Below are positions 5,259 through 41,032 of a DNA stretch of 61,622 nucleotides, piece by piece. The stretch covers positions 1 through 61,622 of the IMG/VR virus record IMGVR_UViG_3300024339_000018; one strand, given 5' to 3'. The DNA comes from a virus. Each line of letters starts with the position of its first letter. Positions within the stretch are counted from its first letter, which is position 1. Under the pieces are notes generated by a model. That model did not search any database, was not told the origin of the DNA, and was given only the letters and a program-made list of their open reading frames with translations. The translations under genes were made by a program, and so were the position numbers.

Positions 5259-5591
5259 ATGAAAACTAAATTCAAAAACTGGAAAACTGTAAAAAGTTTG
5301 CGTGATGCTGAAAAGCTCACAACATTACTACAAGAAAAATACCCGGAGCTTCTTTTCAGGGTTAAAACAAACTCCTGGAAAGGTAAAGATAAAAAAACAT
5401 ATTCTGTACAAAATATAGTAAGAAAGGGCTGTAAGAGAGATCTTACTTATTTGGGTCCTATTCAAGATAAGCTTACGGAGGCATTAGGGAGAGGTCCTAG
5501 TACTGATGAGCTAGTAGAAGCAGCCGGTATACCTTTAAGGGCTCTTAAAAAGTTCTTTGCACGTAAAGAGCTTTTCGCGTCTATAGCTTAG
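5259..5591 (+). CDS. Small basic protein with sigma-region-3-like helix-turn-helix
   Basis: 110 residues. The N-terminal 60 are basic and not recognised. Residues ~70-101 (DKLTEALGRGP-STDELVEAAG-IPLRALKKFF) look like region 3 of sigma70-family factors, which reads L..LGR.PT.EELA..LG. No region 2 or 4 is seen, so it is not a full sigma factor. Given that the phage encodes its own RNA polymerase core, an accessory transcription factor is an attractive but unproven idea. The last 15 bases, including the stop codon, lie inside the tRNA-Gly gene. Confidence 0.6.
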   Translation: MKTKFKNWKTVKSLRDAEKLTTLLQEKYPELLFRVKTNSWKGKDKKTYSVQNIVRKGCKRDLTYLGPIQDKLTEALGRGPSTDELVEAAGIPLRALKKFFARKELFASIA

Positions 5592-5650
5592 AGGTAAAGC
5601 TCCAGCCTTCCAAGCTGGTCACGGGGGTTCAATTCCCCCTAGACGCTCCA
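5577..5650 (+). tRNA. tRNA-Gly (anticodon TCC)
   Basis: Cloverleaf with acceptor GCGTCTA/TAGACGC, anticodon arm CCAGC-CTTCCAA-GCTGG, T arm GGGGG-TTCAATT-CCCCC and encoded CCA. The 5' part overlaps the stop codon of the upstream protein gene. A terminator follows immediately. Confidence 0.93.
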
Positions 5651-16490: not shown

Positions 16491-19400
16491 CTAGAATTCA
16501 CCTTTTGTACCTGGCTTATCCTTAAAATCACCTAAAAGCCAAGAGTTTATAGGGTTGATGCTGCGTATTTTGGCAACTGAGCCTTTTATAGCCGCCTCTG
16601 GAATAGCTGTTCTAGCTTCTCTTCTTGCAGATTGTGCCAAGAAATCATTACGTAACAAGGGTACTCTATTAGCCCCCTCTAAGCGTGCCGCATATTTTAT
16701 GAGGGCGCCATTTTTGTTTAATTTATCTAATACTGCTATTTTCTCCATATCACCTGGCTCATACTTAAGAGAAGTTCCTGGATCTATTACACGCGCATGC
16801 TCAGTCAGGGAGCGACTTAAGACTTCGAAGTGTATGGGGTTTAAGGAAATTCCATTAGAAGAATACAGGTTCCGCATGCTATTTGTCAAGTACTTTCTTG
16901 CCCCTAATAAGCCTTCTACTTCAAGTACTTTTCTAGGATGCCTTAATCCTGTAGTGAGTGCCTGTCCTCGTTCCACGCGTTGATCCTTTTTAACCAAAGG
17001 ATTAACTATATCTGTAGCATGATATTTTCTATCATCTACGTGTATGTCCCAGCCCCCACCTAACGCTTTCTCTACTTTGGTTACAAAACCTGTAGACTCG
17101 GCCACAGGAGCTTCATTAAAAAAACTATTAGGTATCTTACCAAATAGGTTGTTTGCATCTCGTGCTAAGGTCTTAGGCCCTCCTTCTTCTGAACCCTTTC
17201 CTGAGTGAAAAACACGCATTAAACCTTGTGTAATACTTTCACTAGTTACTTGAGCAGCTTCCGCGCCAACATGGTCTCCTATAGTTGGTAATCTAAACTG
17301 ATCATTTAGACCGTGACATTTTACGCAAATACCTTGTACCGCTTCGCATGTTAATGGCGAGCGTACCAGGAACATCTTTTTCTTGTGTGTTTTTAAATAT
17401 ACCTCATCAATAGGAGAAGAACCATCCACTAGAAAACGCCCTATTATGAAAGGGTCTGTGCGAGACAAGCTGATGCCTTTTGTTGTCAAACAGTCTTTTT
17501 CAGTTATAACAAGCTCCATTCCAGCATGTACTTCATCCTTGCTTAGCTCCCCTCCTTTAGCAACGCCTCTTACTTTAGAAATCATTCCGCTTCTAGCTGC
17601 AAACTGAGTATTTATATAATCAGAAGCATTCATACCTTGAGCATAACCAGTAGATAGAGAGTTGTCTTGTAAACCCTGTCCAGCTACTCCTTCCATGAAG
17701 CCAGGCGTGTATAGCATCTGCGTCAGATTACTCCATTTCCCTTTTGCACCAGATCTCTTCATATCATAAAGGCGATTCTTATCGAAAAAACTTTTAAAGG
17801 TTTTTTGAGTTTTAGCCATACCCTTGTCTAAGTTATCTGCGTACTTATTATCTTTACCGTATACATCTACTAGAGATGCGACCTGCTTATCTAAAGCCTT
17901 TGGTGTAGTAATATCATTTAAAGATATACTAAAGCCAGCAAGGTATACATACTTATTTCCTAAGTCTTTTAAGGTGTTTAAAAGATCGGCAGCTTTTGAT
18001 GCACTCTCTTTATATATAGCTTTAATTAAGTCTTGAATAACGCCTTTATCCAGACTTTTCCCTTTTATAATGGAATGATATTTAGCTGGAATATTCTTGT
18101 ATAAAATAGCCCAACCTAAGCTTACTTTTTTACCTTGTATAGTTACTTCATCGTTTAAAGTTATCTCGTTTTTTAGGAAAGAAGCCTCTGCTGCACTTAG
18201 ATTTGTGTACGTTTTCTGTGAGCTCTTTCCTTTTTTACTCAATATATAAAGACCGAGGACAGCCTCGTTAGAAGGCATTGGCAAGATATTGCGATCAGGA
18301 CCGAACAAAGAGTTGCTTGGCATCAGCTTTCTAGCTGCTTCAAGTCGTGCACCTTCTGTAACTGGAACATGCATATTCATTGTGTCCCATACAAAATAAC
18401 CATAATCAGTAGCAAAGTTTTTGTAATCCTTAACGGTGATATCATACATATCAATAGTGCGCCCTGTCTTTCTGGAAGAAGTAATTAAGCCCCATCTAAC
18501 GGCTTTGTTCTGTACTAATTTCATATATTCCCTAGGTAAAACTTCCAGCTCCTCATCTGTCATATGTGATAAAAAGAAATTGAAAGCTGCACGAGTCCAT
18601 GGCTCATAGCCGAGTTCTATCCAATCGCTATAAGATTTTAATGAATAAGCATAGCGTAATTTATTAGCTTTCATTTTTGAATCTATTCTAAATCGGGTAG
18701 TTTCAAGAATGAGCATACTTACAAAAGTAGGTACAGGGATAAAATCGTGTGCCTTTAAAGATATACTTAGTAGCTTGCTATCATCCAAGAAGGCCCGGCT
18801 TAGAGCAGAGAAATAGTGCGCATTCTTCAGGTAAAAATTCTTTACATCTAATTGTTTAAACTCTAAGCTATAGATAGAGCAGTTTTTAATTTTCTTCGAA
18901 GTGAATGTACCATCTACGCCAACGGACTGGACCAGCTTTGCTATGTCATCTAAGAAGGCTTTGTTCTTTGTTTCTCTTATAGCAAAAGAATCTTTATTAA
19001 GCATGATAGAGGCTTCAATTAGGCCAGACACAAAGGCTTCTCTTTCTTTTTTAGAAACACCTATTAAAAAAGAAGGGAGCCTTAACTCATCATTCAAGTA
19101 GACGTTAGAGTCTATCCAGTTTAAAATAAAAGGACTAATGAAGCGGCCTTGTGTATCAAAATGAGCCTCTTTATACTCATTAACTAGCCTAGCTCTACCT
19201 TCTAGGAAAGTAGAATTGCTAAAAGTGTATCCCCCGACACGTTTTTTATTATTGCGCGTAGAGCCAGTAAAGAAACCTAGACTAGATATTAAATGCAGTC
19301 TTTCTTGTTCTGAGCGGCTATTAGATACGCCCTCAAACTTATTTGGATTAGCATACTCAATATCAAAAAGACGAGGGACACATAGAAAAGAAGCGTCGGC

Positions 19401-22400
19401 TGGTTTTGTTTTCTCAACTATATTTAACTCGGGATTAAAACAAACCAAACTGTGGTTATCACTAACATTTAAAGTAATGTCGCCAGTAAGTTTTACCTCC
19501 CATTCTTCGCAGCCTTTATGTTTATGAAATTTAGTAACTTCTTTTAACTCTATCGTACCATCAGGTGCTATAGCAGGAACAGTCATTCCTTTAGGCACAG
19601 AGTATATCTCTTTATTAGCTTTTCTTTCTATGAGATCTCCGTGAGGTATATCTGCAATATTGGTAGTAATACACAGTTTTGTTTTTACAATACTGTCGCC
19701 ATTATCAATATTATACTCGCCAGGGGCACTTAGCCAAATATCGCCTATCATGGAATCCCCATCAAAATCAGCATTAAAGCCATGGATTACTAGGGGGTTA
19801 AGCATGATAGCCTGCCCTGGGACAACTCGACCCCACTGCGACATAAAATTAAACTTATGTAAAGAGGGGTGTCGGTTAACCATTACGGGACGTTCTTTCA
19901 TTACTTCGTCGAGCTGGTGACGCGCTACTGGTGTTCTATCTTTTATGGCCTCCAAAGCTTTAATGGGTGTGTACCCATTTTGCACCATTTTTCTAGTTAT
20001 GAATGGTTTCATGATCTTGAAAGCCATGTCTTCTGGAACGCCTACATGATCTAACGGCAAGTTGGGGTCTACTGTAATAGTAGAACCACCACTTATGTCC
20101 TGTTTTTTCCGCATCATCTTCTGTTGTATTACACCTAACTTACCTCCTGATTTAGGGGCTAGCTGACGTAAGATACCTTTCTCAGATGCACGCTGTTTTA
20201 GCTGGAAAGATACAGGGTCTGTTGTACCAAACACTGCACCTGCGTGCTTGTATAGTTGCTCAATACGTGTACCTACTGTTTCGTCATCGTAAAAATCTAG
20301 AGCTTTTAAATTCTTCAATCCGTCGCTTTCTAATTTTAGAGACTGATAAAGCTCGTTTATAGGTGGATTTTGTACTGTACCAGTTGGCAAAATAGTCATC
20401 TGCCTGAATTTAGGAGGCAGAATAGGGAAAGCGTTTAGTACATACAACTCAGAAGGTTTTTTCCCTAATACTTTAATGTTAGATAAGAAGCGTATTTTTG
20501 TATTAGTATTATTTAAATCCCCCCATTCTTTATCTAAACCCTGTTGTTTTCCTTGTGCTCTTAATTCTTTTAACTGCTTATCTATATTTATAGCATCAAG
20601 CATAGTAGCAATAGCCTTCCCTCCAAAAAGAACACCATCTTTAGATATAGTGCCATCCTCCGATACTTTAGTTTTTCCTTTTAGAATCGCATTGAAAACT
20701 TTTGTTGTGATACCCAATGTTTTTGTGATTGCTCTTTCAAAAATCGGATTAGGTATAGGCTCAGCTAAAGAGATGTGTGTCCATTTTGTTCCCGCATCAC
20801 CTCCAGTTAGCGCAGGGTCATAAAAACCGCCCACCTCTGGTTTCATATCGCGTGAACGCATAAATTTAGCTTCACGGATCTCTCCGTTGCTCTGCTTAAG
20901 AATATCTTCTGTGGTAGAAGGCGTGAGTGCTAATGAATCCTTTGTCTTAAAAGTGTTTAAACCTAAAGCTTGCAAAGAAGATAAAAAGTTATCTTGCATA
21001 GCAGGGACTTTTGGATTAGGTAGCGGCATTCCGGAATGCATAGCTCTCCAAAACTCATCGTTTTTTGTACCTTTTATATTCGCCATCTCGGCGAGATTCT
21101 TTCTTGCTCCGCCTGCCAATAAACTATAAAAGGAGAGGCCATCAATAGCCCTAGTTCCATTTGTTTCAGTCTTCTTTGGCTGCTCGTATTGAACATCGTA
21201 ATAACCGGTCTCACCTGCTTTAATCTTCTTTCTTACACTATGCTTGAGTTTATTAAAATAAAGCTGACCAACATGAACATTCGTCATGGTTTTTCCTGTT
21301 TCTGGGTCAGTTACCGTTTCTTCGTCGTGAATCCCTGAACGGGCTTGTTCTTGCTTAGCTATATTTACATGCCCCCTCTCGTCGAACTGCTTTAAAGCGT
21401 ATATCTTCCCCTCTTTTTTTGCTATTTTACCCAAGGAACTTTCTATCATCTGGGATGGATTCATTCGACTTGGTATGCCATGCGGATTGAAGAGAACTTC
21501 TAAGGGACTCCCATCCGCGCCCACTGGCATCTGGGCATCAGCTACAATCTTAGTGATAATCCCTTTACCGCCATAGCGTGTAGCCATTTTATCCCCCTCT
21601 ACAGCGGGTTCTTCTGTTTTAACAAAAACTTTATTATGTTTATTGTCTTGATAAACCCGTGTAACAACCCCAGGTACATTTTTGTTATAAATAGGGCTTA
21701 TATCGCGAGGAGCTAGTAATTGAGATATTTTTTTATTTAGAGTAGATATAGCGGCTTGTGCTGGTGTTAACTCGCGTTTTTCATAAGCTAATATAAGCGG
21801 AATACCATATTCAACTATAGTGCCTTCTTTAATTAAACCATTATCATCGTAGTTTGCGAGATTCGTTATTGAAGCCGACCCTGGGAAGAGTGAAACATAT
21901 GAACCTTTTCCTATTACAACATCTTTTCCTTTTTCAACTTCGAATTCTAGTAAATGTAGGGATGTTAGCTTCTTTGCCGCTCCCTCACTGACCACGAACC
22001 CATCTTCGAAATTATAACCTTTATAGGCTAAGAACCCTGTTTTAAGATTAGTACCTAAAGCCAGTTTCCCGTCTTTAGAAAAAACTGAATCAGCTAAGCG
22101 TTGCCCTTTCTTTACACTATCTCCTGCTTTTACTATTACATTTGTATCCATAAACGATTCAGTATTAAGCGGAAAATCAGAAGGATATTCATGATCTAAC
22201 AAAGTCCCGTTAAGACTTTTTAGGACTATCTTGTCTTGCCTCACTGCTTGAATAGTACCTGATTCGATAGCAATAATATTACCTTGCATATCTACGCTAG
22301 GGAAATCTCTACTCCCTTTATTGCTATGCGTCTGCTCATACTGTGTAGTTACTAAAGGCGCCTCTCTATATTTAAGAGGTAATGATTGCGTATATTGTTT

Positions 22401-23873
22401 ATTCCCTACATTAGCTCTTACCCCATAGGTTGAACCGAGCATGGGGATCATATTAGATACTTTACTAAATAGGCTCTCTGGTTTCATAAAATATTTAGCA
22501 GTGGACGCTTTTATCTGCTGAGCAATCCCGTTCTTGAATCCGCTAATACTTCCTTTATTTGCAGGATCACCTATACCAATTACTGTATTGGCAAAAGCAT
22601 AAGAGGAGATGGTCGTAGCTTTGTTCGCTCTATCAACTACTTTTATATGAGGAACACCACCTTTTATGGCCGAGCCTACTGTCCTATGAAGCACCACACC
22701 GATTTTATCGGCTGATTCAGGGGAGGCTAGTGGATCAGCGATGCCATGTAGCGTTGGTTGTAATGTGCGCATATCATCACTTACAGCTCGCGCTTGACTA
22801 ATCCCGCCTGGTCCGAATACGGTTAATGCGTCTTCGCCTGAAATCCAGTCAAGCGGGTTAGTTTGGTCTGTGTACTCTTTTAGAGAGCTACTAGAAAAAA
22901 GATCATAAATAGGCTTTTCAAATTTACTAGCTGAAAGAATGCTTTTTAAATCTTTTTTACCCCCTCTTCTTCGTACTCTAGTAACAAACTTAGAAGTAGC
23001 TGCAGTGATAGATTCTACTATATTATCTTCTGGTGTTAGATATTCTCTAAAGTAAGAAGCATTAACATCGTCTGGTTTTTGAATACCCGCTGCAGTTTTT
23101 CTTAGCTTAGCAGTTAAAGCCAACCAGAAAGAAGGTGAAACTTTATCATATCCTTTGCCTAACGTAATTTCATTAGAGCCTCCCTCAAAAGAGATACCTG
23201 TGAATTTCTCACGTATATCTTCCGAGGCTTCAACGAAGGATGAATAGGTTTTTCCTGTTAATCGTTTAGCTATTTTTTTAAGCTCACTATTTAAATTATC
23301 TGTATAGTTAACTCTAAAAAGCTTATCTCCCATCGCCGTTTTAAGTTGGCTATCAGAGACATTAAAGGCTTTTATTAGCGCAAATAAACTAAACTTAGAA
23401 TCTTTTATTTTAAATAGGAATTTACCTGTCTCTGGTACTAACTCAACAGCTACTCTCTGATCAAACTGTGAATTACCCGCTGCCATATTGAAGGAAGCGC
23501 CGTAAGCGCCTGCTTGATTTTGGGAGACGTAAACACCTGGCTTTCTACGATATTGATTTTTTATGACAATCTCATTTCCATTCCATATATAAGTCCCGCG
23601 ATTTGTTTTTATGGGTAATTTAAAAAGCCGTTTAGTAACCTTCTCTTCTTTATTATTAATAGTATCTTTTAATATAAAACGACCTTTTATAGCGCTCCCA
23701 TGGGTTTGTCCTGCTAGACGCGCTTTTAGTTCAGCTTTAAGGGACCTGTCTGGATCATCAATAATTATATTGGTTAGTGTTAGTGTTCTTCCTGTGCCTA
23801 CTGGAATACCTTTTATTGAAGAGGTTAAGGCCTTTTCAATTGATGTTTTAAACGTATTAATTCTATCAGTCAT
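16491..23873 (-). CDS. Single-chain multisubunit-type RNA polymerase (beta/beta-prime fusion) with intein
   Basis: 2460 codons. The N-terminal half has beta motifs: NFEDGFVVSEGA (~622), GDKMATRYGGKGI (~759), HGIPSRMNPSQMIESSLG (~797-815). The C-terminal half has beta-prime motifs: FPILPPKFR (~1145), the catalytic NADFDGD (1367-1373), the zinc site C2128, C2176, C2183, C2186, and the trigger-loop segment SESITQGLMRVFHSGK (2211-2226). An intein of 457 residues splits the chain directly after D1373; splicing would give DFDGD-TMNMHVP and a mature protein of about 2003 residues, shorter than cellular beta plus beta-prime. No alpha or omega subunit is seen here. It would transcribe phage genes. A 770-base hairpin-rich leader lies upstream. 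Confidence 0.93.
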   Translation of the reverse strand: MTDRINTFKTSIEKALTSSIKGIPVGTGRTLTLTNIIIDDPDRSLKAELKARLAGQTHGSAIKGRFILKDTINNKEEKVTKRLFKLPIKTNRGTYIWNGNEIVIKNQYRRKPGVYVSQNQAGAYGASFNMAAGNSQFDQRVAVELVPETGKFLFKIKDSKFSLFALIKAFNVSDSQLKTAMGDKLFRVNYTDNLNSELKKIAKRLTGKTYSSFVEASEDIREKFTGISFEGGSNEITLGKGYDKVSPSFWLALTAKLRKTAAGIQKPDDVNASYFREYLTPEDNIVESITAATSKFVTRVRRRGGKKDLKSILSASKFEKPIYDLFSSSSLKEYTDQTNPLDWISGEDALTVFGPGGISQARAVSDDMRTLQPTLHGIADPLASPESADKIGVVLHRTVGSAIKGGVPHIKVVDRANKATTISSYAFANTVIGIGDPANKGSISGFKNGIAQQIKASTAKYFMKPESLFSKVSNMIPMLGSTYGVRANVGNKQYTQSLPLKYREAPLVTTQYEQTHSNKGSRDFPSVDMQGNIIAIESGTIQAVRQDKIVLKSLNGTLLDHEYPSDFPLNTESFMDTNVIVKAGDSVKKGQRLADSVFSKDGKLALGTNLKTGFLAYKGYNFEDGFVVSEGAAKKLTSLHLLEFEVEKGKDVVIGKGSYVSLFPGSASITNLANYDDNGLIKEGTIVEYGIPLILAYEKRELTPAQAAISTLNKKISQLLAPRDISPIYNKNVPGVVTRVYQDNKHNKVFVKTEEPAVEGDKMATRYGGKGIITKIVADAQMPVGADGSPLEVLFNPHGIPSRMNPSQMIESSLGKIAKKEGKIYALKQFDERGHVNIAKQEQARSGIHDEETVTDPETGKTMTNVHVGQLYFNKLKHSVRKKIKAGETGYYDVQYEQPKKTETNGTRAIDGLSFYSLLAGGARKNLAEMANIKGTKNDEFWRAMHSGMPLPNPKVPAMQDNFLSSLQALGLNTFKTKDSLALTPSTTEDILKQSNGEIREAKFMRSRDMKPEVGGFYDPALTGGDAGTKWTHISLAEPIPNPIFERAITKTLGITTKVFNAILKGKTKVSEDGTISKDGVLFGGKAIATMLDAINIDKQLKELRAQGKQQGLDKEWGDLNNTNTKIRFLSNIKVLGKKPSELYVLNAFPILPPKFRQMTILPTGTVQNPPINELYQSLKLESDGLKNLKALDFYDDETVGTRIEQLYKHAGAVFGTTDPVSFQLKQRASEKGILRQLAPKSGGKLGVIQQKMMRKKQDISGGSTITVDPNLPLDHVGVPEDMAFKIMKPFITRKMVQNGYTPIKALEAIKDRTPVARHQLDEVMKERPVMVNRHPSLHKFNFMSQWGRVVPGQAIMLNPLVIHGFNADFDGDSMIGDIWLSAPGEYNIDNGDSIVKTKLCITTNIADIPHGDLIERKANKEIYSVPKGMTVPAIAPDGTIELKEVTKFHKHKGCEEWEVKLTGDITLNVSDNHSLVCFNPELNIVEKTKPADASFLCVPRLFDIEYANPNKFEGVSNSRSEQERLHLISSLGFFTGSTRNNKKRVGGYTFSNSTFLEGRARLVNEYKEAHFDTQGRFISPFILNWIDSNVYLNDELRLPSFLIGVSKKEREAFVSGLIEASIMLNKDSFAIRETKNKAFLDDIAKLVQSVGVDGTFTSKKIKNCSIYSLEFKQLDVKNFYLKNAHYFSALSRAFLDDSKLLSISLKAHDFIPVPTFVSMLILETTRFRIDSKMKANKLRYAYSLKSYSDWIELGYEPWTRAAFNFFLSHMTDEELEVLPREYMKLVQNKAVRWGLITSSRKTGRTIDMYDITVKDYKNFATDYGYFVWDTMNMHVPVTEGARLEAARKLMPSNSLFGPDRNILPMPSNEAVLGLYILSKKGKSSQKTYTNLSAAEASFLKNEITLNDEVTIQGKKVSLGWAILYKNIPAKYHSIIKGKSLDKGVIQDLIKAIYKESASKAADLLNTLKDLGNKYVYLAGFSISLNDITTPKALDKQVASLVDVYGKDNKYADNLDKGMAKTQKTFKSFFDKNRLYDMKRSGAKGKWSNLTQMLYTPGFMEGVAGQGLQDNSLSTGYAQGMNASDYINTQFAARSGMISKVRGVAKGGELSKDEVHAGMELVITEKDCLTTKGISLSRTDPFIIGRFLVDGSSPIDEVYLKTHKKKMFLVRSPLTCEAVQGICVKCHGLNDQFRLPTIGDHVGAEAAQVTSESITQGLMRVFHSGKGSEEGGPKTLARDANNLFGKIPNSFFNEAPVAESTGFVTKVEKALGGGWDIHVDDRKYHATDIVNPLVKKDQRVERGQALTTGLRHPRKVLEVEGLLGARKYLTNSMRNLYSSNGISLNPIHFEVLSRSLTEHARVIDPGTSLKYEPGDMEKIAVLDKLNKNGALIKYAARLEGANRVPLLRNDFLAQSARREARTAIPEAAIKGSVAKIRSINPINSWLLGDFKDKPGTKGEF
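18384..19754 (-). mobile_element. Intein in the RNA polymerase active-site loop
   Basis: Residues 1374-1830 of the fusion polymerase. Ser1374 is the predicted first residue (SMIGDIWLSAPG as block A). A block B histidine is in NVSDNHSLV, block F is MYDITVKDYKNFATDYG, and the last residue is Asp1830 followed by extein Thr1831. Removal restores DFDGD-TMNMHVPV, the expected beta-prime loop. The usual His-Asn end is replaced by Trp-Asp. Two LAGLIDADG-like helices are visible near 1526-1537 (SSLGFFTGS) and 1614-1624 (VSGLIEASIM). The acidic catalytic position appears to be Thr and Ser, so the homing endonuclease is probably inactive. Confidence 0.88.
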
Positions 23874-38795: not shown

Positions 38796-39818
38796 ATGGC
38801 TGAAACAGCGCAAACAATTAAAGAAATTTTAATGAGACAGATCGATGTCCCTATCTATATCTGGGGTCCTCCTGGGATTGGAAAATCAGATATCGTTAAA
38901 CAAGTGGGAGAAGAGTTAGGGGTAGACGTAATCGACATACGGCTCTCCCTTATGGACCCTACAGACTTACGAGGTGTTCCTATGATAATTGAGGGAGAAG
39001 CTAAGTGGGTTAAACCAAGCTTTCTTCCCAAGGAAGAGAACACTATCATATTCTTCGATGAGCTAAACCACGCTCCTCCTAGCGTTCAATCAGCTGCCTA
39101 TCAAATCATACTTGATGGACGAATTGGCGAGCACCGTCTCCCTAATAATACAATTCGTATTGCGGCTGGTAACCAAAAAGGAGAGGGTATTCTAGGATAT
39201 GATTTACCCTTGCCTTTAAAGAACCGTTTTGTGCACTTAGAGATGCGTCACGATAAAAATGCCTGGGTAGAGTGGGCTCGGGATTCTGCTATTGATACTA
39301 GGATTATCTCTTTTATTGAGTCCAAGCCAGAGCTTCTTATGGAGTTACCAAAAGGGCAAGCAACACAAAGTGCTTATGGTTTTCCTACCCCCAGGAGTTG
39401 GGTTTTTACCTCTAAAATCATAAAAGGTCTTAGTTTAAAGGAAGAGGAAAAGATACTCGCTCCTTTAGTGGAAGGGGCTATTGGGAAAAAAGCATCGGCT
39501 ATATTTAATGCATATTTGTTATTACTAGAAGAGTATAAAACACCTGAGTTTATCTTGGATAATCCAGATTACATAACAAAAGACGTAGATAAAAGTGTTA
39601 TGTGGAGTGTACTTACCTCCGTTGCGGAGATTGTAACAGAAGATAAAAAAGATAACTTCCTAAGATTAATTGACAACCCCTCGATCCCCAAAGAGCTTAG
39701 TCAGTATGCGCTATCACTTGCTTTGAGTACTTACTGCAAAACTTGGTTACTTTCTGGCGATATCCTTAAGAAAGCTCTTAACAGCGAAGAGGTAAAACTT
39801 GCTGCCAATTCTCTATGA
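38796..39818 (+). CDS. MoxR-type AAA+ ATPase
   Basis: 340 residues. Walker A GPPGIGKS (24-31), Walker B IIFFDEL (D88, E89), sensor-1 N126 in AAGNQ, and R144 in the KNRF segment as arginine finger. The LxDPxDLRGVP motif after Walker A is typical of the MoxR subgroup. MoxR ATPases work as chaperones with VWA-domain partners, and the next gene is such a partner, overlapping by 4 bases. An AGGAG site precedes the ATG. Confidence 0.92.
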   Translation: MAETAQTIKEILMRQIDVPIYIWGPPGIGKSDIVKQVGEELGVDVIDIRLSLMDPTDLRGVPMIIEGEAKWVKPSFLPKEENTIIFFDELNHAPPSVQSAAYQIILDGRIGEHRLPNNTIRIAAGNQKGEGILGYDLPLPLKNRFVHLEMRHDKNAWVEWARDSAIDTRIISFIESKPELLMELPKGQATQSAYGFPTPRSWVFTSKIIKGLSLKEEEKILAPLVEGAIGKKASAIFNAYLLLLEEYKTPEFILDNPDYITKDVDKSVMWSVLTSVAEIVTEDKKDNFLRLIDNPSIPKELSQYALSLALSTYCKTWLLSGDILKKALNSEEVKLAANSL

Positions 39819-41032
39819 TTGATAAAGTAACTCTAGCTACTAATCTGCGAGCAACTAAAATTTTTCTAATGCATAAAGCCCCTTTCTTCGGCGCTTTATT
39901 CTATGGGACTACAATAAGTATTAATGAAGAGGAGGAGAGGCCTTCCTGCGCTTGGACAGATGGAGAGACTATTTATTTCAATCTGCAACAGCTAAATACC
40001 TTACTGGAAGACTCTTTTATGGCTATGAAAGAAAAAGAAGTAAACAAAGAACACTTTATTTTTGAATGCATTACGTTCCTAGCCATTCACGAATTGATGC
40101 ACTGCATGTTTCTTCATTTAGAAAGAAAAGGCGCTAGAGAAGCACTTATTTGGAATTGTGCTGCAGATGTAACAATTAATACATTAATAGATCAGTGGTT
40201 CCCATCTTTGAGGTCCCCAAAAGGTTTGTTAACTGCATCTTCTTTCAATCTTAATAATGTAAGAAATAAAACAACCGAAACTGTTTATGATGAGTTATTA
40301 AATAAGGGAGTAGATCCTTCAAGAATGACCATGCTAGATCTACAAGAGGATCTGGAGAAAAATAGCCAAGATCTTAAAGATGAATGGCAAAAGAAAATGG
40401 AGCAGGCTAAGGCGCAATGCTCTGGAAATATCCAACCAAGAGACGCTCGCCCTATTTCTGGCCGAACTGATTCACTAATAGACTTATTAGATGAGGTGTA
40501 CGAGCCTAAAGTTAATTGGAGAGAGCTAATCGATCACTTGGGTGGAGAGATAGCTAAAGGAGACTTTAGTTTTCGGAGACAGTCTAAAAATAGCATAGGT
40601 ACAAATTATTACTTACCTAGTATGCATACATATGAACCTTTTGTGGTGGTAGCTATCGATACTAGTGGAAGTATTTCCAAAATGGAATATGTTCGATTTA
40701 TGTCGGAAGTAAGGGGTATCTTGTCCTTGCATAATTGTAAAGTAGGCTTACTCCAGTGTGATACCTCTATCACAAGCTATGTAGAGCTCTCTACGGGAGA
40801 TGCGCTACCACCTGTAAAGGGAGGAGGGGGAACTAGATTTAAGCCGGTTTTTGAATATCTAAATTCTATTAATAGAAGCATAGAGGCCCTTCTTTATTTC
40901 ACTGATGGATATAACTTCGATTCAGGTTTTGAAAAAGCTCTGGCTGTAAATCACCAAGTCGTTTGGGTCATGACAACAGGAGTAACTGCACCTGAAATTG
41001 GACGAAGTTTGCGCTACGATCCTTATACTTAG
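39815..41032 (+). CDS. VWA-domain protein with HExxH zinc motif (MoxR partner)
   Basis: 405 residues. The N-terminal half has AIHELMHCMFLH (H92, E93, H96), a metallopeptidase-like site as in DUF2201-type proteins. The C-terminal part is a VWA domain with an intact MIDAS motif, AIDTSGSIS (D282, S284, S286), plus GGGGTRFKPVFEY and FTDG for the later metal contacts. The AAA+ gene just before it, with which it overlaps by 4 bases, predicts a two-protein chaperone pair. The role in the phage is unknown. It ends 4 bases inside the convergent tail gene. Confidence 0.88.
   Translation: MIDKVTLATNLRATKIFLMHKAPFFGALFYGTTISINEEEERPSCAWTDGETIYFNLQQLNTLLEDSFMAMKEKEVNKEHFIFECITFLAIHELMHCMFLHLERKGAREALIWNCAADVTINTLIDQWFPSLRSPKGLLTASSFNLNNVRNKTTETVYDELLNKGVDPSRMTMLDLQEDLEKNSQDLKDEWQKKMEQAKAQCSGNIQPRDARPISGRTDSLIDLLDEVYEPKVNWRELIDHLGGEIAKGDFSFRRQSKNSIGTNYYLPSMHTYEPFVVVAIDTSGSISKMEYVRFMSEVRGILSLHNCKVGLLQCDTSITSYVELSTGDALPPVKGGGGTRFKPVFEYLNSINRSIEALLYFTDGYNFDSGFEKALAVNHQVVWVMTTGVTAPEIGRSLRYDPYT

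Follow-up and report, generated by a model that had tools for sequence, protein, structure and literature searches.

Why does an intein interrupt the catalytic loop of a phage RNA polymerase (RNAP), and is it kept there as a regulator or carried as a parasite? The question is raised by a 61,622-nt stretch of viral DNA (positions 1 to 61,622 of IMG/VR record IMGVR_UViG_3300024339_000018; hereafter, the window), in which one gene on the (−) strand (16491..23873) encodes a fused beta/beta′ RNAP of 2460 aa with an intein in the magnesium-binding (Mg) loop. We consider it probable that the insert is a self-splicing, selfish homing intein that occupies a conserved catalytic site of a one-chain polymerase. 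What can be read from the sequences in this respect is the architecture of the gene, the boundaries of the insert, a family of alleles at the same boundary, one pair of empty and filled sites and the decay of the endonuclease motifs.

The gene comprises 2460 codons, with an ATG start and no internal stops, and its product matches, in order, the Pfam families Rpb2_6 (residues 574–901, E value 1.2e-50), Rpb1_2 (residues 1323–1375, 1.5e-22), Rpb1_3, Rpb1_4 (23.2 bits, below the cut-off of 24.8) and Rpb1_5. The top NCBIfam model is PRK09603 "beta/beta′" (2.1e-115), followed by rpoC (1.8e-104) and rpoB (1.7e-78), all three with scores far below the curated cut-offs, and the chain also matches a beta′ chain in the PDB (7l7b_D, 4.3e-68). 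The N-extein (residues 1–1373; 19755..23873, on the (−) strand like all features of this gene) consists of beta and the start of beta′ through the third catalytic Asp. It includes GDKMATRYGGKGI (residues 760–772; 21558..21596), read from the sequence, which we take to be the beta catalytic-lysine motif, and the Mg-binding motif NADFDGD (residues 1367–1373; 19755..19775). The C-extein (630 aa and the stop; 16491..18383) provides the remainder of beta′, bringing the extein halves to a total of 2003 aa. With both beta and beta′ profile matches, three catalytic Asp residues and a beta lysine motif, the chain has the features of a bacterial-type RNAP with two large subunits. An initial reading made from the sequence alone (the sequence-only reading) had described a one-chain polymerase with a four-Cys zinc site; the open frame and the ordered profile matches, including those to rpoB and rpoC, bear out the former, and Cys 2128, 2176, 2183 and 2186 (region 17316..17492) can be read from the sequence for the latter. 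Cellular beta′ also has a first zinc domain, and residues 976–1080, its expected place in the window chain, contain no Cys. The same gene is found in a second IMG/VR virus record (156,428 b) with 1 mismatch across the 22,119 b compared, and the two records may come from the same population. The intein-bearing polymerase frame is thus confirmed by its profile matches and its recurrence as real and not a product of chance.

The insert starts directly after D1373, the third catalytic Asp of NADFDGD, and extends over 457 aa from S1374 to D1830 (18384..19754), beginning with SMIGD and ending with YFVWD. It is followed by T1831, from where the chain reads TMNMHVPV, and its flanks read as the intact, uninterrupted loop of relatives (e.g., NADFDGD/TMxVHVP, with the slash marking the insertion site). 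The boundaries and the 2003-residue extein given by the sequence-only reading proved exact, and the rebuilding of the loop from the flanks that it anticipated holds at the level of sequence. Compared with intein profiles and folds, the insert behaves as an intein: a profile of 10 alleles matches PI-PkoII (1.6e-22), PI-PfuI (1.7e-12) and further inteins in the PDB, and an AlphaFold2 (AF2) model of the intein (mean predicted local distance difference test [pLDDT] of 81.3) matches the TliVMA intein (1.1e-14) and PI-PfuI (3.0e-13). The Pfam model Intein_splicing gives 1.2e-8 and 35.4 bits with the insert alone, 0.4 bits short of the cut-off of 35.8; over the window record and the 156-kb record, this model matches solely inside the polymerase gene. 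A model of a 722-aa precursor (29-row alignment; pLDDT 77.5, predicted template modeling score [pTM] 0.58) matches both inteins (7qss, 7.9e-15) and bacterial beta′ (6xl5_D and 8re4_D; 116 columns, root-mean-square deviation 2.2–2.3, 41% identity); its loop residues 134–139 have a pLDDT below 50 and are hence uninformative on loop geometry.

Most hallmarks of a class 1 intein are present in the window copy, namely, an in-frame insertion at a conserved site that is empty in homologues, a splicing (HINT) domain recognized by PDB profile and fold, Ser1 (S1374), the block B motif SDNH (19452..19463), block F MYDITVKDYKNF (18414..18449; Asp retained, usual His missing) and Thr at +1 (T1831). Block names follow a review (PMC4031507). 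At the C-terminal splice junction (YFVWD/T; 18381..18398), the cyclizing residue is Asp, a variant of the usual Asn, and the preceding residue is Trp instead of His, a common feature that is not required. According to the same review, Asp at the C-terminus is a recognized variant capable of cyclization, the penultimate His is missing from some inteins, those with an atypical final residue can be slow to splice and one intein splices better with Gln than with Asn (PMC4031507). Active LAGLIDADG motifs are lacking, as the first motif (LGFFTGSTR; 19254..19280) has lost its GDG and the second (GLIEASI; 19005..19025) has Glu in place of Asp. Among 34 aligned alleles that likewise end in Asp, the Asp of motif 2 is kept in 30 and a GDGW-like motif 1 in 25, one allele (L142) being wrongly bounded in these aligned-column counts and correctly so in the junction counts below. 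Both features are missing from the window copy, L026 and L028.

From these residues, a splicing pathway can be proposed: Ser1 would take the acyl group of D1373, Thr+1 would then attack that group, and the terminal Asp, replacing the usual Asn, would cyclize and free the intein, so that the flanks would be ligated as NADFDGD-TMNMHVP, the loop type of intein-free relatives. The precursor is probably inactive, judging from the position of the insert, because it parts the three Asp residues from the strand that follows; such inactivity alone does not make the intein a switch.

We then asked how widely this site is occupied. A scan of IMG/VR with nine segments of the N-terminal part of beta′ (beta′N) gave at least 598 stretches, of which at least 453 were confirmed, and the best 80 loci were examined, including the window's own virus and some loci that are copies of each other. 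The site holds no intein in 73 of these 80 loci and is occupied in the other 7, two of which are truncated by contig ends. A scan with the intein alignment yielded 118 stretches, 63 of them confirmed, in 60 loci, most with an intein at the same boundary; four of the 60 have no RNAP match (L168, L171, L173 and L174), two carry the insert at neighboring positions (L121 and L128) and four lack part of the N side or are fragments (L117, L118, L151 and L158). A smaller scan produced nine stretches, with an intein in six (L022 being the window's own virus), a split case in L018 and no intein in L017 and L023. Before alleles were counted, seven loci repeating counted viruses and five identical sequences were dropped; L157 was counted despite an unusual downstream extein, and L057 and L068, cut by contig ends, were left outside. 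This leaves 50 distinct complete alleles that share the boundary and are in frame with both exteins, 33 of them ending in Asp and 17 in Asn. Specifically, 28 alleles follow DGD, begin with Ser (n = 19), Cys (n = 8) or Thr (n = 1) and end in Asp; 5 follow DGN, begin with Cys (n = 4) or Ser (n = 1) and end in Asp; and 17 follow DGD, mostly begin with a non-nucleophile and end in Ser-Asn before Thr. The terminal Asp and a Thr, Ser or Cys at +1 occur in 33/33 of the distinct Asp-ending alleles, across both of their groupings, the residue before the Asp being W, Y, Q or F rather than His, and the His column of block B is occupied by another residue in 11 of the 34 aligned Asp-ending alleles.

Evidence that the intein moves comes from two near-identical phages, one with an empty site (L097) and one with a filled site (L126), which are distinguished by a 1461-nt insert lying precisely between DGD and T. 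Across the 8172 nt of flanking DNA compared, there are six differences, four in the left flank of 7952 nt (at −1, −7, −31 and −52) and two in the right flank of 220 nt (at +3 and +93), all within 93 nt of the insert; this clustering fits homing with co-conversion, in which short flanks are copied alongside the intein. In a second pair (L048 and L049), the proteins are 99.9% identical in their N-exteins, 98.7% in their C-exteins (306 aligned residues) and 63% in their inteins, with intein identity starting at 32% over the first 50 residues and reaching 100% at the end. At the DNA level, this pair shows 29 differences in the 400 nt before the intein and none in the 204 nt after it, a gradient resembling a recombination tract. 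In a tree of 117 beta′N segments (built by a quick method, with several long branches, the label "none" referring to this site only), the presence and absence of the intein require at least 28 changes, 19 of which are forced by well-supported branches. A parasitic element fits the empty and filled pair, the patchy distribution and the apparently intact motifs in most of the other aligned alleles, and the relatives suggest a hopping element that keeps coming back to this loop rather than a switch built for the purpose. The selfish family would enter the loop by endonuclease-driven homing, with repeated gain and loss, and would be protected there, in that its imprecise loss would break the polymerase.

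Several observations weigh against this picture of a selfish, homing intein. The L097 contig ends near the site, limiting the right flank to 220 nt, and both L097 and L126 are assemblies. Intein presence forms clusters on the tree (shuffled labels need a mean of 39.0 changes, and 0/500 shuffles were as low as 28), so that part of the spread is vertical; by this analysis, the intein appears to change often at the site and yet to be clustered among relatives. The terminal Asp, the Trp before it and the missing block F His are unusual features with which splicing could be slow or could fail, and splicing of the window intein is a prediction from its residues. Moreover, both viruses found in the window's own sub-lineage (2/2) retain the intein with decayed endonuclease motifs, a state that a pure parasite model explains only through difficult loss.

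These points lend themselves to other explanations. The sequence-only reading had proposed a switch, i.e., that the intein holds newly made polymerase inactive until slow or conditional, Asp-dependent splicing and thereby delays or conditions phage transcription. The location of the insert inside the Mg loop, the atypical terminal Asp with its potential for slow splicing (PMC4031507) and the retention of the intein in the window and L026, whose exteins are about 50% identical and whose endonucleases both look dead, would agree with such a role. We nevertheless judge it improbable and find the proposal unsupported and not required by the data, given the empty site in a near-identical phage, the 73 of 80 relatives without an intein at the site and the fit of the patchy distribution and of co-conversion to homing. 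The intein that splices better with Gln also speaks against it (PMC4031507), as does removal of the polB intein of H. volcanii, in a different gene, which caused no growth defect (PMC7776575). Nor is the splicing part of the intein significantly better conserved than the endonuclease part between the window and L026 (43% versus 34% identity, P = 0.06).

Less probable still is that no splicing takes place and that the gene encodes either a dead polymerase or one that functions with the intein retained. The missing terminal Asn and preceding His could be read in this way, as could the non-His residues in the block B column of 11 of the 34 aligned alleles; set against them are the Ser1, SDNH, block F Asp and Thr+1 of the window copy, an extein that is open and conserved throughout, the invariance of the terminal Asp and of a Thr, Ser or Cys at +1 across the 33 distinct Asp-ending alleles and the known ability of Asp to cyclize (PMC4031507). 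As for an artifact of assembly or frame, the alleles derive from metagenome assemblies, and three of them were compared with 50,697 annotated phage records: the L024 allele has one weak match there, in a helicase gene, the L087 allele has none, and the window allele has no intein match at an E value of 1e-5 among the best places listed. We give this explanation almost no weight, because an identical junction, with the frame open into both exteins, recurs in each of the 50 alleles counted, and the window gene itself recurs in the second record.

For the window and L026, the selfish homing intein that we favor would be in a late state. The two are sisters (support 100), with exteins 50–51% identical and inteins 38% identical, and a scan from both sequences gave 219 stretches, of which 2 were confirmed, these two viruses only. 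The endonuclease is apparently dead in the window and in this one close relative, and the pair is most simply explained by vertical inheritance of an intein whose endonuclease is dead; with its motifs decayed, the intein would probably be inherited passively. As the intein stays although its endonuclease seems lost, a timer role in this sub-lineage is conceivable. The difference in identity between the splicing and endonuclease parts is, at P = 0.06, too weak to claim selection on splicing.

Is the continuous chain itself unusual, as the sequence-only reading had supposed? In 69 of the 80 related loci, beta, beta′N and the C-terminal part of beta′ (beta′C) lie in the frame of the motif, with 5 of these frames running off the contig end; of the rest, 6 encode just beta and beta′N (3 of them at a contig end) and 5 encode beta′ but lack beta. 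L031, found with the N-extein of the window, is a single frame of 2117 aa with no intein. The fused chain was therefore rejected as the novelty of this locus, and, on these sequences, it is the usual form in this phage clade. Among annotated phages, the nearest are Vibrio phage D69 and Salmonella phage Arash, each with two genes, one for beta-beta′N (1527 and 1525 aa, respectively) and one for beta′C (609 and 606 aa), and with no intein at the site. In Vibrio phage D181 (L003:2692-8206), beta-beta′N, a single gene in D69, is divided between two frames that flank an annotated homing endonuclease gene.

Not all relatives of the window intein follow its pattern. The 17 distinct Asn-ending alleles (L087, L132–L134, L136–L139, L143–L145, L147, L153, L162, L166, L167 and L172) have K, F, D, Q, A, E, Y or L as residue 1, or Cys in 2 cases, and all end in SN/T; the 15 that could be aligned have DDD(E/P)RAV in place of the block B His. 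Class 3 inteins are marked by a WCT signature, and the Asn-ending alleles seem not to belong to that class, as their block F has Asp. In the five alleles preceded by DGN (L156, L164, L170, L176 and L194), all ending in Asp, the block B His is Glu in 4/5, and standard splicing, if it occurs, would leave Asn as the third catalytic residue. The exact spelling NADFDGN was found in 25 stretches across all viral contigs; 4 of these are RNAPs, representing two distinct sequences, and all 4 bear an intein, so that no intein-free RNAP with this spelling is among the 25. It is conceivable, if unlikely, that these 17 mostly nucleophile-less and 5 DGN alleles place the catalytic-loop family beyond the described splicing classes and that the window copy serves as a slow maturation timer. 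If the nucleophile-less alleles splice, the chemistry may be new, for example, with Thr+1 directly attacking the bond between the polymerase's own catalytic Asp and the residue that follows.

The two inserts at neighboring loop positions, which are not part of the 50-allele count, bear on the placement of the junction. In L121, it lies two codons downstream (DGDAM/S..VWD/SVYLP, with relative L080 reading DGDAMSVYLPI), and in L128, the insert lies upstream of the motif (GF/S..VFD/SADNDGD). Both inteins end in Asp next to a complete motif, so the terminal Asp belongs to the intein, and a shifted junction, which the DGN alleles had suggested and in which this Asp would be the third catalytic Asp of the polymerase, was rejected.

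L032 (3294-7235) looks like a natural split intein that would rebuild the active site in trans. Its gene A stops 44 codons past NADFDGD and is followed by an unrelated frame and then by gene B, which opens with a 155-residue stretch ending in NGLFVFD/TVSLIRV. Gene B matches a profile of the Asp-ending alleles (5.3e-9) and reaches an E value of only 0.1 with the Pfam intein model, and the 44-residue half alone has no significant match to the Asp-ending profile; the same contig carries a second RNAP with no intein. Further inserts that read as inteins occur at other conserved RNAP motifs, namely, in L027 (after TQLAMK and before TFHTGG), L029 (after DPINTPEG) and L030 (after GDKICGRHGNKGIVT). 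Matches to Intein_splicing above the curated cut-off also occur in other genes of two phages (G006:C1:87740-87949 and G010:C1:21529-21930).

The Mg loop, among the most conserved stretches of RNAP, is a place where inteins have landed repeatedly in phages, and the family provides natural replicates at one codon boundary, with sites that are empty, filled, mini, endonuclease-dead, apparently split and nucleophile-less. They bear on the long-standing question of whether inteins in essential catalytic sites are parasites only or whether some have been retained as switches. Tools for protein splicing could also draw on the Asp-ending alleles and on the apparently split allele, whose two genes would together restore a polymerase active site.

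How does this family compare with known systems? The literature search, with subscription papers mostly uncovered and InBase not included, turned up no intein described for the beta′ Mg loop, and none is mentioned in the available portions of PMC7824862, PMC10638138, PMC12363816, PMC3556154, PMC5874633, PMC5784728 and PMC12619734 or of the other papers cited here. The inteins of RPA2, RPB2, RPC2 and viral RPO (Goodwin et al. 2006, PMC1635734) likewise occupy conserved RNAP sites near the active site in several taxa, but those are other sites, in the beta-like subunit of eukaryotes and their viruses, whereas the present site is the beta′ Mg loop of phages. Non-Asn residues that cyclize are also found in P. 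abyssi Pol II (Gln), in the ribonucleotide reductase of Chilo iridescent virus (Gln) and in other Asp-ending inteins (PMC4031507); unlike the atypical endings covered there, the Asp here is uniform across the 33 distinct alleles, with W, Y, Q or F before it. TliVMA (7qss), PI-PfuI (1dq3) and PI-PkoII (2cw7) share the fold of the splicing and endonuclease domains with the window intein, at 12% identity in Foldseek alignments and in other host proteins, and the endonuclease motifs of the window copy are decayed. The profile of archaeal RNAP A″ (NF011491) matches the L087 (1.1e-14) and L024 (1.6e-4) alleles, from which we infer that the profile includes an intein in the region matched; because A″ corresponds to the C-terminal half of beta′, the site differs from the Mg loop. 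RNAP A′ and A″ of M. jannaschii carry inteins. For a cellular source, the pattern NADFDGD[S/C]xxG gave one match in 84,980 species genomes, which is not an intein; this is a weak test, since it can detect only inteins with a T-C/G-N codon at position 1 and Gly at position 4.

Among split inteins, the DNA polymerase B of phage MIJ3 (PMC6892783) parallels L032 in that a phage polymerase is rebuilt from two genes, but it is a DNA polymerase with an HNH endonuclease gene between the halves and a long N half. With respect to the polymerase, PRK09603 and PRK14844, the fused bacterial beta/beta′ models, which represent Helicobacter and Wolbachia, have the same domain order in one chain, at 2839–2890 positions versus the 2003-aa extein, and the window chain scores far below their curated cut-offs. 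The mReC phages (Weinheimer and Aylward 2020, PMC7481178) are likewise tailed, with recognizable beta and beta′ and an NADxDGD motif; they are described with beta and beta′ subunits, fusion is named for crAssphage only, and the available text has no word beginning with "intein" or "split". The RNAPs of crAss-like phages, YonO and P23-45 (PMC7886860, PMC10770324) also combine both catalytic barrels in one chain but are described as extremely divergent from cellular RNAPs, and the window chain, being recognizable by cellular beta and beta′ profiles, is not of that type. In jumbo phages phiKZ and AR9 (PMC7598289), beta and beta′ are each split into several chains, in contrast to the single frame of the window. 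Zeta crAss-like polymerases have stops and frameshifts at the DxDxD motif (PMC7886860), and these disruptions could be worth re-reading for inteins.

Elsewhere, the window encodes a terminase large subunit (PHROG 675, 1.2e-67) and a tail-fiber-like protein. At 38796–41032 on the (+) strand, a gene for an AAA ATPase precedes a DUF2201 VWA-like/metallopeptidase-like gene, and genes for tRNA-Arg (tct), tRNA-Leu (taa) and tRNA-Gly (tcc) lie at 2774–2933 and 5577–5650, also on the (+) strand. Because of the terminase, the tail-fiber-like protein, the ATPase/VWA-like pair and the three tRNAs, we assign the window to a tailed phage.

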